Below, piece by piece: positions 18,374 to 22,543 of a DNA stretch of 64,000 bases. The notes beneath the pieces were generated by a model. That model was given only the letters and a program-made list of their open reading frames with translations. It was not told the DNA's origin and ran no database searches. The DNA is taken from assembly GCA_025451235.1 (NCBI GenBank), contig JANWKT010000016.1:1-64000 (forward strand). Reading direction: 5' to 3'. The translations under genes were made by a program, and so were the position numbers. Within the stretch, counting starts at the first letter, position 1; each line of letters opens with the position of its first letter. This DNA comes from Flavobacteriales bacterium (lineage in GTDB: Bacteria; Bacteroidota; Bacteroidia; CAIKAF01).

Positions 18374-19582
18374 ATGTACGGTAAATTAAAAGAACATCTT
18401 CAGGCTGAATTAAAAAGTATTGAAGAAGCTGGCCTGTTCAAAAAAGAAAGGATCATCGTTAGTGAACAAGGAGCGGAAATTGTATTGAATACCGGTGAAA
18501 AAGTATTGAACTTTTGTGCCAATAATTATTTAGGCTTATCCAGTCATCCTAAGGTGATCGAGGCTGCACATAAAACATTAGACAGCCGTGGATATGGAAT
18601 GAGTTCGGTTCGGTTTATATGCGGCACCCAGGATATTCATAAAGAACTTGAACAAAAGATCGCAAAATTTTTGGGCCAGGAAGATACCATCTTGTACGCC
18701 GCTTGCTTTGATGCCAATGGTGGTGTATTTGAACCTCTTTTTGGTGAAGAAGATGCCATCATCTCCGATGAATTGAACCATGCCTCCATTATCGATGGAG
18801 TTCGTTTATGTAAATCGGTGAGGTATCGTTACAAAAATTCTGATATGGCCGATCTCGAAGAAAAATTAAAAGAGGCCCAGGCACAAAGATTCAGGATCAT
18901 CGTTACAGATGGCGTTTTTTCAATGGATGGATATGTGGCTCCTTTAGATAAAATTTGTGACCTAGCAGATAAATACAATGCATTGGTGATGGTAGATGAA
19001 AGTCATGCCACAGGATTTATAGGAAAAACGGGAAGAGGAACAGTTGAATTAAAGAATGTAATGAACCGCGTGGATATAATTACCGGAACTTTGGGCAAGG
19101 CGTTGGGTGGTGCCATGGGAGGATTTACTACCGGAAAAAAAGAAGTGATCGAAATGTTACGCCAGAGAAGCAGGCCCTATTTGTTTTCCAATTCATTGGC
19201 TCCCTCCATTGTAGGTGCTTCTATTGCTGTGTTTGACATGTTGAGCGAAACAACTACTCTTAGAGATAAATTGGAATCGAACATCCAATATTTTAAAGAA
19301 GGAATAAAAAAATCAGGATTGGATTATAAGAATGGTGAATCAGCTATTATTCCGATTATGTTATACGATGCTAAGCTGGCGCAGGATTTTGCCACTCAAT
19401 TATTAGCCGAAGGTATTTATGTAATTGGTTTCTTTTATCCAGTTGTTGCTAAAGGGCAAGCCAGGATAAGGGTGCAGATCTCTGCGGCGCATGAAAAAGA
19501 ACACCTTGATAAGGCAATTGCTGCTTTTACAAAAGTGGGCAACGAACTCGGAATAATAAAAAAGGCGGAATTAAAAAATTGA
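18374..19582 (+). CDS. kbl: Glycine C-acetyltransferase (2-amino-3-ketobutyrate CoA ligase)
   Basis: 402 aa alpha-oxoamine synthase. It interconverts 2-amino-3-oxobutyrate + CoA with glycine + acetyl-CoA, the second step of threonine breakdown. Motifs: [20 protein letters not shown], the conserved [27 protein letters not shown], and the PLP lysine K242 in [14 protein letters not shown]. Length matches KBL (about 398). KBL, not BioF or SPT, is supported by the sequence [13 protein letters not shown]...GLFKKERII at the N-terminus. Threonine dehydrogenase is not nearby. The four-helix-bundle element lies directly downstream. Confidence 0.93.
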
Positions 19583-19594
19583 TATGATCTAAGA

Positions 19595-20101
19595 ATTTAA
19601 TTCAAGATTCAATGTTCAAGATTCAACATTAAAATCAAAAAATGGCAACCATAAAAAACTTTGAGGATTTAAGCGTTTGGAAAGAAGCACGAATCCTATC
19701 AAAGGATATTTATCAGTTGACAAAAAAAAGTAGTTATAGCAAAGAATTGGACCTTAAAAACCAAATTAAACGATCGGCTGGCTCTATTACAGATAATATT
19801 GCTGAAGGGTTTGAAAGAGGTGGAAATAAAGAATTTATACAGTTTTTGTATATTGCAAAAGGATCATACGGAGAATTGCGGTCTCAATTGTATCGATCGG
19901 TGGATTTTGATGTAATTACAGAAAAAGAATCTGCTGGTCATATAGAAAAGGCAAAAAATATATCATCGATGCTTCAAGGTTTTATTTCATACCTTAAGAA
20001 TTCGGGATTTAAGGGCGATAAATATGTTCTGAAAGAACCAAAGGCAATATATAAAAACCTGAAATAAAATTTTGAACATTGAATTTTAAACTTTGAATTA
20101 A
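19595..20101. mobile_element. Inverted-repeat-bounded four-helix-bundle unit (candidate mobile element)
   Basis: The four-helix gene sits between a perfect 13-nt inverted repeat: ATTCAATGTTCAA at 19606-19618 and TTGAACATTGAAT at 20072-20084. Outside both copies lies a matching TTTAATTCAA-type end. On the left the motif TTCAAGATTCAA(T/C) occurs twice in tandem. Nothing like it flanks the other genes here. The unit separates kbl from yicC-gmk. A self-contained insertion is inferred; no transposase is present, so movement would need factors in trans. Confidence 0.5.
19642..20067 (+). CDS. Four-helix-bundle protein (23S rRNA intervening-sequence/S23 family)
   Basis: 141 aa, all helical by composition. 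The N-terminus FEDLSVWKEARILSKDIY, the middle LKNQIKRSAGSITDNIAEGFERG and KEFIQFLYIAKGSYGELRSQL are hallmark motifs of the four-helix-bundle family TIGR02436. That family was first found inside 23S rRNA intervening sequences and is now known as a widespread stand-alone gene. It forms pentamers with a basic face in solved structures; cellular function is unknown. The gene is between inverted repeats, with AT-rich DNA either side, unlike its neighbours. It looks like an inserted unit. Confidence 0.88.
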   Translation: MATIKNFEDLSVWKEARILSKDIYQLTKKSSYSKELDLKNQIKRSAGSITDNIAEGFERGGNKEFIQFLYIAKGSYGELRSQLYRSVDFDVITEKESAGHIEKAKNISSMLQGFISYLKNSGFKGDKYVLKEPKAIYKNLK

Positions 20102-20105
20102 AGAA

Positions 20106-20975
20106 ATGATTTACAGCATGACTGGCTACGGAAAAAGTAGCAAAGAAGTAAATGGCAAAAAGCTAACCGTAGAAGTTCGGACATTAAATAGCAAGGGCTT
20201 GGATGTGAACCTGAAAACGCCCAGCATGTATAGGGAAAAGGAAAACGAGTTGCGCAATCTCATCAGTCAGAAGCTCGACAGAGGCAAGGTGGATTTCTGG
20301 ATGAACCAGGAAGACCTGGGTGAAAGCAGCAATGTAAAGATCGATACTGGCTTAGTAAAATCATATTATAATCAACTTACAAAAATCGGAACTGAATTAA
20401 AAACGGATACAGATTGGATGCAGATCATCTTCCGCATGCCAGATGTAGTAAAACCGGCCGAAGGAGAGATCACCGAAAAAGAATGGAAATTGATCGAAGA
20501 AATTGCTTCTTCTGCTTTGGACCAATGTATGAAATTCAGAAGATCGGAAGGGGAACAATTACAAATTGCCCTTACCGAACATATTCAACGCATTGAAGAG
20601 TTGATGGCAGGGGTGGCTCCCTTTGAAGGAGAAAGGGTGACCCGGTTAAGGGACAGGATCTTGAAAAATCTGGACGATTCTATTAAAGATGGCAAAGTGG
20701 ACAAAGACAGGTTTGAGCAGGAAATTATTTTTTACCTGGAGAAACTGGATATTACGGAAGAAAAGATCCGCCTGAAAAGCCATCTGGAATATTTTATCGA
20801 AACCATGAAATCAGAAGGTTTTAATGGAAGAAAATTAAATTTTATTGGCCAGGAAATGGGAAGAGAGATCAATACGTTGGGAAGCAAAGCCAATGAATCC
20901 AATATCCAAAAGCTGGTGGTTTTAATGAAGGATGAACTGGAAAAAATAAAAGAGCAAGTGTTGAACGTGTTGTAG
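20106..20975 (+). CDS. yicC: YicC-family endoribonuclease
   Basis: 289 aa. The N-terminus MIYSMTGYGKSS is the family signature, and the C-terminal DUF1732 region ends with the conserved EKLDITEEKIRLKSHLEYF and GRKLNFIGQEMGREINTLGSKAN. YicC proteins are cytosolic RNases that act on structured or small RNAs (the E. coli member promotes decay of RyhB sRNA). It is followed 5 nt later by gmk, an ancient and common pairing, so the two are co-transcribed. Confidence 0.92.
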   Translation: MIYSMTGYGKSSKEVNGKKLTVEVRTLNSKGLDVNLKTPSMYREKENELRNLISQKLDRGKVDFWMNQEDLGESSNVKIDTGLVKSYYNQLTKIGTELKTDTDWMQIIFRMPDVVKPAEGEITEKEWKLIEEIASSALDQCMKFRRSEGEQLQIALTEHIQRIEELMAGVAPFEGERVTRLRDRILKNLDDSIKDGKVDKDRFEQEIIFYLEKLDITEEKIRLKSHLEYFIETMKSEGFNGRKLNFIGQEMGREINTLGSKANESNIQKLVVLMKDELEKIKEQVLNVL

Positions 20976-20980
20976 CGGAT

Positions 20981-21550
20981 ATGAACCTGGAAAAAGTGAT
21001 CATATTTTCAGCTCCAAGCGGTGCAGGCAAAACAACCATCACCCGTTTTATATTGGAAAAAGTAGAGCGAAGCGAGTTTTCGGTTTCGGCTACCACCCGG
21101 CCTCCCAGGTCACACGAAAAAAACGGTTTTGATTATTATTTTATTTCTATCGAGGATTTTAAAGATAAAATAGAAAAAGATGCATTTGTAGAATGGGAAG
21201 AGGTATATAGCCAACACTTTTATGGTACCTTGAAATCAGAAGTAAAAAGGATCTGGGACAAGGGAAACATCGTTCTGTTTGATGTAGACGTGAAAGGGGG
21301 CATTAATTTAAAAAAGTATTTCAAAGAAAAGGCCTTGGCTATTTTCATCATGCCTCCTTCCATACAGGTATTGGAGGAAAGATTGAGAAAAAGAGGAACA
21401 GAAACAGAAGCGGCCATTCAAATGAGGATTGCCAAAGCCAGCAAGGAAATGGAATATCACAAGGATTTTGACCAGATCGTATTGAATGATGACCTAGTAA
21501 GTGCTCAAAACGATGCCTACAAAAAAATACTCAACTTTATCAAGAACTAA
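20981..21550 (+). CDS. gmk: Guanylate kinase
   Basis: 189 aa. It phosphorylates GMP to GDP with ATP. The P-loop APSGAGKTT is at 11-19, followed by the GMP-binding SATTRPPRSHEKNGFDYYF and EWEEVY motifs, and DVDVKGGINLKK with IMPPSIQVLEERLRKRGTE. Length is standard. It follows yicC with 5 nt between, and the secreted 147-aa gene starts 12 nt later, so all may share one transcript. Confidence 0.95.
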   Translation: MNLEKVIIFSAPSGAGKTTITRFILEKVERSEFSVSATTRPPRSHEKNGFDYYFISIEDFKDKIEKDAFVEWEEVYSQHFYGTLKSEVKRIWDKGNIVLFDVDVKGGINLKKYFKEKALAIFIMPPSIQVLEERLRKRGTETEAAIQMRIAKASKEMEYHKDFDQIVLNDDLVSAQNDAYKKILNFIKN

Positions 21551-21562
21551 AACACAACAGTT

Positions 21563-22006
21563 ATGAATATAAAAAAAATAGTCTTCGTGCTTTGCCTGAT
21601 CATAGGCATGTCGGCTGCCCACGCCAACAATGCAAAACTGATCTCCATTAGTTTCAAATATAGTTTTAAGCATGCCAACTCAGGGACCGATATCAACACC
21701 CGGTTGAAAATATATGTAGATGATGTGGTAAAAGGGGTTTCCCTGGAAAAAATGGAAACTGCCAGCAACCATGTTACCATTCAGATCCCGGCCGGTACCC
21801 ATAAGATCCGGGCTGTGATCGAATCGGAATTTGAACATGTTTGGGAAGAACATACTATTGTAAATGAATACAGCATTGATTGTGTATACCTAAAAGAAAT
21901 GAATTTTACCAAGAATTTTTTTGTGGAGCTGATATTTGACCTCGAAAAGGGCACCATTGTTAAGAACGACGGGTCGAACAGTGGAACTTTCTACAATTCC
22001 TATTGA
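21563..22006 (+). CDS. Secreted protein of unknown function, first of a pair
   Basis: 147 aa with a signal peptide (MNIKKIVFVLCLIIGMSAAHA). The mature part is predicted beta-rich, with ISFKYSFKHANSG, LKIYVDDVVKG, VTIQIPAGTHKIRAVIESEFEHVWEEHT and YSIDCVY. The 'V.I..G.H.IRAV.ES' centre resembles PEGA/beta-sandwich modules that display a small molecule-binding or structural fold. It is clearly related to the next gene (shared GxHxIRAVxES.x..WEEHxxxNxYSIDC), so they arose by duplication. Function unknown. Confidence 0.75.
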   Translation: MNIKKIVFVLCLIIGMSAAHANNAKLISISFKYSFKHANSGTDINTRLKIYVDDVVKGVSLEKMETASNHVTIQIPAGTHKIRAVIESEFEHVWEEHTIVNEYSIDCVYLKEMNFTKNFFVELIFDLEKGTIVKNDGSNSGTFYNSY

Positions 22007-22129: not shown

Positions 22130-22543
22130 ATGAATGCAAAGAAAATCCTCCTCCTATTTGTTTTATTAACGGGGTTTGCAGCAACCAAAGCTATTGCTGC
22201 AAGTAATGTAAAGATTACCTTCAGGTTCAAGTTCATCAATATAGAGGCCGGTTACGACCATATATCGAGAATGAAAGTATATGTAGATGGGAATTTAGCA
22301 GGTACCTCTCCTGAGAAAAAAGAAAGTGAACTAAATACCGTGGTGGTGGAAGTATCCAAGGGATTTCATACCATCAGAGCAGTTGTTGAATCTTTATACG
22401 AAGGTAACTGGGAAGAACATATAGCAGCCAATGATTATAGTATTGATTGCTTATATGAAAGATCCATGAAGTATACCAAAAAGAATACAAATATCATCAT
22501 CGACTTCGACATCAATGTCGGCACGGTGATCAAAAAGAAATAA
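22130..22543 (+). CDS. Secreted protein of unknown function, second of a pair
   Basis: 137 aa; signal peptide MNAKKILLLFVLLTGFAATK followed by AIAAS. It aligns along its whole length with the 147-aa neighbour: KITFRFKF, MKVYVDGNLAGTSPEKKESE, VVVEVSKGFHTIRAVVES, NWEEHIAANDYSIDCLYE, DFDINVGTVIKKK. The C-terminus is shorter. A strong bidirectional terminator follows. Beta-sandwich fold likely, role unknown. Confidence 0.75.
   Translation: MNAKKILLLFVLLTGFAATKAIAASNVKITFRFKFINIEAGYDHISRMKVYVDGNLAGTSPEKKESELNTVVVEVSKGFHTIRAVVESLYEGNWEEHIAANDYSIDCLYERSMKYTKKNTNIIIDFDINVGTVIKKK

Follow-up and report, generated by a model that had tools for sequence, protein, structure and literature searches.

An IVP-family gene between inverted heptad arrays in the kbl-yicC spacer: a candidate intervening-sequence element in a protein operon

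Introduction

The closest described counterparts of the locus analysed here are the intervening sequences of 23S rRNA genes. For Coxiella, the available text of PMC4990558 describes three tandem heptamers (GACAGAT) ahead of the S23p ORF, a 28-bp terminal stem, and excision by RNase III. The same text gives the S23/IVP protein family no known function and presents one member, XCC0516 (2gsc), as a pentamer. Stand-alone PF05635 genes annotated as four helix bundle or S23, XCC0516 among them, belong to the same family as the gene studied here. S23 genes have been associated with cas genes, with no mention of repeats in the available part of that source (PMC3936711), and Avd of diversity-generating retroelements has a related, PF05635-like fold, according to the accessible portion of PMC10053308.

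Tandem 7-nt units are also the building blocks of the bacterial heptanucleotide repeats, which are intergenic and sometimes inverted; examples are the GGGAATC repeat of Xanthomonas (some 70 inverted pairs in each genome), those of Nostoc, and TAACTGA of Beggiatoaceae. Neither S23 nor a helix bundle appears in the searched text of the papers that describe them. In a literature search with few subscription papers in its coverage, no paper connected heptad arrays to stand-alone IVP genes; the nearest case is that of the heptamers in Coxiella (PMC4990558). Taken singly, IVP proteins, intervening sequences of rRNA, and heptad repeats of bacteria have all been described, and in the literature searched they are linked by nothing further than these Coxiella heptamers.

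The window, by which we mean the whole stretch of DNA analysed, comprises 64,000 nt of a Flavobacteriales genome (G000:C16:1-64000, G000 being the genome itself).

Results and discussion

An IVP gene enclosed by heptad arrays

An earlier note, made from the sequence alone, described a four-helix-bundle gene between kbl and yicC with perfect 13-nt inverted repeats. Profile searches confirm both neighbours and assign the 141-aa product to PF05635 (23S_rRNA_IVP/S23; E 8.8e-33, 113.1 bits against a cut-off of 33.8, covering profile positions 1-106 of 106). The same search found no other domain in the protein, and specifically no transposase or nuclease domain. The 13-mer ATTCAATGTTCAA begins one base later than had been reported (19607-19619 rather than 19606-19618), and its exact reverse complement lies at 20072-20084. 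The further matching ends described outside the 13-mers, TTTAATTCAA and TTGAATTAAA, are also present, inside arms of 35 nt each that are 77% complementary. What had been overlooked is how the arms are built: each is a tandem array of about four copies of the 7-nt unit TTCAANN, and the two arrays are mutually inverted (Table 1).

Table 1. Features in and around the kbl-yicC spacer of the window
Feature	Position	Strand	Basis or details
kbl (glycine C-acetyltransferase-like), upstream operon neighbour	18374..19582	+	ORF, Aminotran_1_2; Kbl 74-86% identical directly before yicC in 10 relatives
Inserted spacer, 523 nt	19583..20105	.	3-20 nt in ten relatives
Left arm	19596..19630	+	TTCAAGA 19601, TTCAATG 19608, TTCAAGA 19615, TTCAACA 19622; units read from sequence
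IVP gene (23S_rRNA_IVP/S23 four-helix-bundle), 141 aa	19642..20067	+	ORF, Pfam profile
Right arm, inverted	20068..20102	-	TTCAAAG 20097-20091, TTTAAAA 20090-20084, TTCAATG 20083-20077, TTCAAAA 20076-20070; units read from sequence
yicC, downstream operon neighbour	20106..20975	+	ORF, profile
gmk, after yicC	20981-21550		ORF, profile

The best inverted match between 160-nt flanks of the gene scores 31. Among 345 other genes of the same genome, taken with 200-nt flanks, 8 reach a score of 24 and 1 reaches 30. In the predicted RNA fold of the whole spacer the arms are paired with each other and enclose the gene (-110.2 kcal/mol, z -3.36, with 0 of 100 shuffles as stable), so that complementary ends able to form a stem around the ORF are present here as they are in 23S rRNA intervening sequences. 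Farther downstream, two adjacent ORFs (21563-22006 and 22130-22543) encode small proteins that seem, by eye, to be paralogs carrying signal peptides.

Empty kbl-yicC junctions in relatives

A yicC match was found in 15 of the 16 genomes of the family, the source genome included. In 10 of the 14 non-self loci kbl lies directly upstream of yicC and gmk downstream, with kbl-yicC spacers of 3, 3, 3, 3, 6, 6, 10, 12, 17, and 20 nt, while kbl was not found upstream of yicC in the other four. The IVP gene and the heptads are absent from all ten spacers. The earlier note had proposed that the gene and its ends form a mobile or domesticated unit, had suggested looking for empty junctions, and had held that the same gene and repeats at this place in all relatives, with no copies elsewhere, would refute the proposal; instead, every relative that keeps the junction has it empty. 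Since the spacer is short and devoid of both gene and repeats in all ten of these genomes, the IVP gene and its arms are an insertion between kbl and yicC. Across the empty sites considered in this study, the spacers available for reading a target-site duplication measure 2-20 nt and come from diverged genomes. The same-genus genome G001, which is 77% complete, yielded neither yicC nor a close kbl.

Heptad arms at IVP loci across bacteria

The source genome contains seven IVP genes, six of which have inverted heptad arms, with six different heptads. The seventh (L014, on G000:C39) has no heptads; two tRNA genes lie nearby, as does a G+C-rich repeat on its downstream side. IVP genes are present in 44 of the 60 genomes searched, the source genome included. 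For comparison we collected 162 loci: a first set of 77 from these genomes, which remained of 87 IVP matches once identical cores, and genes truncated where a locus ends, had been removed, and 85 from named genomes and plasmids. The first 77 were drawn from the upper part of a score ranking and do not share the peptide pattern of the second set, in which 80 loci are the top 80 among at least 587 confirmed matches to one such pattern and lean to the fad-type IVP. The collection spans Bacteroidota, Cyanobacteriota, and Pseudomonadota, together with records titled Clostridia, Pyrinomonadaceae, and Chlorobiota. A search of phage records with one query gave no IVP match.

An inverted flank match of at least 24 occurs at 125 of the 162 loci, compared with the 8 of 345 control genes noted above (Fisher p 1e-73); in the first set the proportion is 56/77, against 4.1% of 3000 mismatched flank pairs. 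When either an inverted match or a lag-7 segment is accepted, 144/162 IVP loci and 30/345 controls qualify. In the 56 first-set loci, the arms are self-similar at lag 7 (identity 0.60-0.62, against about 0.26) and lag 14 (0.58-0.64), with 0.37 at lag 8 and 0.19-0.32 at other lags; the distal flanks give 0.25-0.29. Where array length could be measured, its median is 4.6 units upstream (99/125 loci) and 4.3 downstream (96/125). Long heptad arrays that are direct rather than inverted occur at three loci (L017, L034, and L037).

Each locus has its own heptad, and fixed transposon ends are therefore rejected: an IS or MITE with a common terminal inverted repeat would not give six heptads at six loci of one genome, and PF05635 as the sole domain of the IVP protein likewise argues against an IS or MITE moved by a transposase in the carried gene. 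The 13-nt repeats, which the earlier note had treated as transposon-type ends, are instead parts of heptad arrays that vary from locus to locus.

Heptads follow the protein sequence

Folding the arms at period 7 reveals a core AG, directed inward (towards the gene) on both arms, with A at 0.71 and G at 0.78 (120/162 loci); this inward motif was itself fitted on the inward strand. The other five positions are mostly specific to the locus. In register, agreement between both arms of a given locus is 0.80-0.94, and shifting them by one or two units gives 0.44-0.77; the excess is due in part to picking the best register.

Among the 115 of 162 loci with a score of at least 26 and an arm of at least 18 nt, heptads are more alike the higher the IVP identity (Mantel r 0.29, 0/2000 permutations). 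The trend persists when the comparison is confined to pairs without a neighbouring gene family in common (0/500 permutations). In those no-shared-neighbour pairs, heptad similarity of 0.6 or more is found in 2% below 40% IVP identity, 41% at 55-60%, and 54-62% above 60%. The closest relative of the window IVP among the 162 collected is L103 of the same-genus genome G001, 52% identical and at a different site, and its arms are of the same TTCAANN type (GTTCAAAAGCTCAATTGTTCAAAAGTTCAA). The recurrence of this architecture around IVP genes across bacteria, with a repeat particular to each protein lineage, hints that protein and repeats form one unit, mobile or regulatory.

A candidate operon-resident element

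We give an even chance to the reading that the window unit is an operon-resident intervening-sequence element, an IVP gene lying in the sense direction between kbl and yicC and enclosed by inverted arrays of its own heptad. On read-through from the operon the arms would form a stem whose loop contains the gene, in line with the predicted RNA fold. Solved PF05635 relatives have five chains per entry, and a pentameric IVP could bind the stem or a single arm, with about one subunit per heptad on about five heptads. RNase III might then cleave the stem, in the way described for intervening sequences of rRNA; cleavage would free the IVP message and separate the two cistrons, and such a cut would be harmless in an intergenic spacer. 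Occasionally the unit, or its arms alone, may be copied to new sites, leaving gene-less hairpins; copying through reverse transcription by a host enzyme would be a guess.

The host of the window element is a protein-operon spacer rather than an rRNA. Elsewhere in the collection, an Azospirillum IVP (L204) sits inside a 23S rRNA gene, with heptad arms that are evident by eye although their automatic score is below 24. In the 23S intervening sequences of Coxiella and Azospirillum, an S23/IVP ORF likewise lies between complementary stem-forming ends with heptads, and because these 23S elements also carry heptads and a stem, the rRNA and operon elements follow one plan. Lying as it does between kbl and yicC, the window element would work like a 23S rRNA intervening sequence without being a member of that group. 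The operon elements studied here differ from the 23S intervening sequences in having gene-less heptad hairpins and a match between protein and heptad.

Position in operons and turnover at junctions

Both neighbours are oriented in the direction of the IVP gene at 137 of the 162 loci and both are opposite at 2; in the first set sense exceeds antisense by 60 to 0, compared with 153 to 31 for control genes. With gene names read from the sequences except in annotated records, occupied junctions include fadB|fadA (25/162 loci; 7/77 in the first set), carA|carB, purC|purF, sdhA|sdhB, sufA|sufB, and cas6|cas4, where two cas6|IVP|cas4 cases carry heptad arms. An IVP gene is also found at the gene after sufB, and at certain junctions occupation extends over many families. 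Purifying selection acts on IVP: six ortholog pairs, all from loci other than that of the window, have dN of 0.01-0.08 and dS of 0.11-1.19, two of eight pairs having been left out with saturated dS. Between the orthologs L135 and L136, the arms have changes that look one-sided by eye.

The repeated use of fadB|fadA, a dN far below dS in the six pairs, and the sense position inside operons would all be expected if IVP were a domesticated regulator of operons that is immobile, or has become so, and that binds heptads in its own transcript in a TRAP-like manner, balances the flanking genes, and is kept at useful junctions. So would the sufA|sufB junction of the source genome and G001, whose SufB proteins are 96% identical: both genomes keep a gene-less TTCAANN hairpin there in which, by eye and at the sole site so judged, the variable positions have all changed, differing in both arms, while the core is kept. 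Other genomes have an IVP gene at sufA|sufB, and most of the loci examined have nothing.

We nevertheless consider such a regulator rather unlikely as the explanation, given how patchy the occupation is. Only 6 of 30 class relatives have IVP at fadB|fadA, and in a single family an IVP match lies upstream of fadA at 15 of 30 loci, seven others being empty, with 2-7 nt. At least four of these 30 loci have heptads without IVP, two of them around unrelated sequence, and were taken by eye for remnants. Moreover, kbl-yicC is empty in all ten relatives, related IVPs occur at unrelated sites with near-identical heptads, and there are truncated copies (L042 and L346, the latter being, with L348, one of two truncated matches among the 15 upstream of fadA). 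The description of the unit in the earlier note as mobile or domesticated is upheld as far as insertion goes, while domestication is possible in view of the purifying selection in the six pairs from other loci and the junctions occupied in many families. At L366 and L369, also upstream of fadA, heptad arms enclose sequence that is not IVP.

Gene-less heptads and tests of RNA pairing

In 1.264 Mb of the source genome, 17 short hairpins have a best period of 7, 6 have a best period of 8, and no other period accounts for more than 3. Gene-less TTCAANN hairpins are present in this genome away from the window. Two gene-less heptad hairpins, L052:10697-10786 and L050:4619-4694, look like copies of one gene-less element because they have a common loop sequence, ATTCGGGGCTAACAACCAATAAC, of which the source genome holds no third copy. 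Near the start of a contig (G000:C12:763-935), about 25 units of TTCAANN, the heptad found in the window element, follow one another as a direct array.

Heptads without a gene accompany IVP genes across genomes. Ten IVP-free genomes had no heptad hairpins and no heptad arrays in 400 kb, while ten IVP-rich genomes had 6 hairpins and 11 arrays in 400 kb without an IVP match. Over 60 genomes, the number of IVP genes correlates with that of period-7 matches to TAG or GAT (rho 0.61, p 2e-7; 0.56 per Mb) and much more weakly with that of period-9 matches (rho 0.28, p 0.03), kinship being ignored in both cases. G009 has a single IVP, with heptad ACTACCC (= TAGTGGG), and 91 heptad matches; most of those listed belong to this type. 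A genome of the same genus, G014, lacks IVP and yet has 34 such matches, which a recent loss of IVP would fit. That gene-less heptads match those of resident IVPs better than others has p 0.002-0.004 over 17 hairpins and p 0.22 over 10 collapsed families. Movement in trans, as the earlier note envisaged, is suggested by the gene-less TTCAANN hairpins elsewhere in the genome; the match to resident IVPs is significant only before families are collapsed.

Sense-strand mismatches compatible with G.U pairing are not in excess in the arms of the 107 of 162 loci that score at least 28; the counts point the other way, 77 against 121. They lend no support to selection for RNA pairing, and recognition of the heptad array, rather than pairing alone, may be the selected feature.

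REP sequences and their RAYT proteins provide a DNA-level precedent, in which a gene is flanked by inverted repeats, gene-less copies occur elsewhere, and the repeat is matched to the protein. IVP elements resemble them in these three traits and differ in lacking a transposase domain and in having variable heptad arrays instead of a fixed end. If IVP were similarly a DNA-binding accessory that aids the recombination or spread of heptad arrays, with RNA pairing incidental, then gene-less arrays and hairpins that follow IVP number, the existence of direct arrays, the missing wobble signal, and a genome such as G009, where a lone IVP is accompanied by many arrays of the corresponding heptad type, would be easily understood. 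We regard this as improbable, since the protein has no transposase or nuclease domain that we could find, the ends are not fixed, and both the sense bias and residence in rRNA point to RNA. That heptads came first, as slippage-born tandem repeats or hairpin terminators where IVP genes happen to insert or survive, agrees with how common heptanucleotide repeats are in bacteria (available text of PMC4692102) and with gene-less hairpins also lying between convergent genes, and is very improbable given empty sites without heptads, none in 400 kb of IVP-free genomes, and a heptad sequence that follows IVP sequence at unrelated sites. The empty sites without heptads likewise disfavour insertion into pre-existing hairpins as the sole account.

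Returning to the operon-resident intervening-sequence element, we find it supported by the arms with their period of 7 and inward core, the insertion, the plan shared with rRNA elements, the match of protein to heptad, the sense orientation, purifying selection, and the association of gene-less heptads with IVP. Arms of 4.3-4.6 units (medians) beside five chains in the solved relatives, and the pairing of the arms in the predicted RNA fold, also speak for it. Against it stand the G.U result, the direct arrays at three loci, L014 without heptads, G014, and the loss of the match in collapsed families, as well as the Coxiella protein, which the available text of PMC4990558 describes as evidently not made in vivo and its ORF as decaying.

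Wider implications and repeats of other periods

More tentatively, and at somewhat less than an even chance, we propose that PF05635 proteins could be the agents of widespread minimal mobile elements, each lineage recognising, making, maintaining, and spreading its own heptad arrays, with or without the gene, in bacterial transcripts. These proteins would then have given rise to the intervening sequences of rRNA and to some, at least, of the bacterial heptanucleotide repeats that lack an explanation. One account would thereby unite rRNA intervening sequences, stand-alone four helix bundle protein genes, IVP genes of cas loci, and dispersed heptanucleotide repeats. The S23/IVP family would gain a directly testable candidate ligand in the heptad arms beside each gene, and more than 100 natural pairs of protein and repeat would be offered for reading a recognition code.

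Repeats of other periods were also encountered. In the source genome, L053:19551-19607, L301:8015-8071, and L307:16766-16810 are gene-less hairpins of an 8-nt unit (TACGAACT type). In G052, a 9-nt array (TAGAGNNNT type) at G052:C9:1788-1835 lies just upstream of an IVP match (G052:C9:1989-2294) and is perhaps a 9-nt variant of the IVP-heptad system; such 9-mers are dispersed in that genome.
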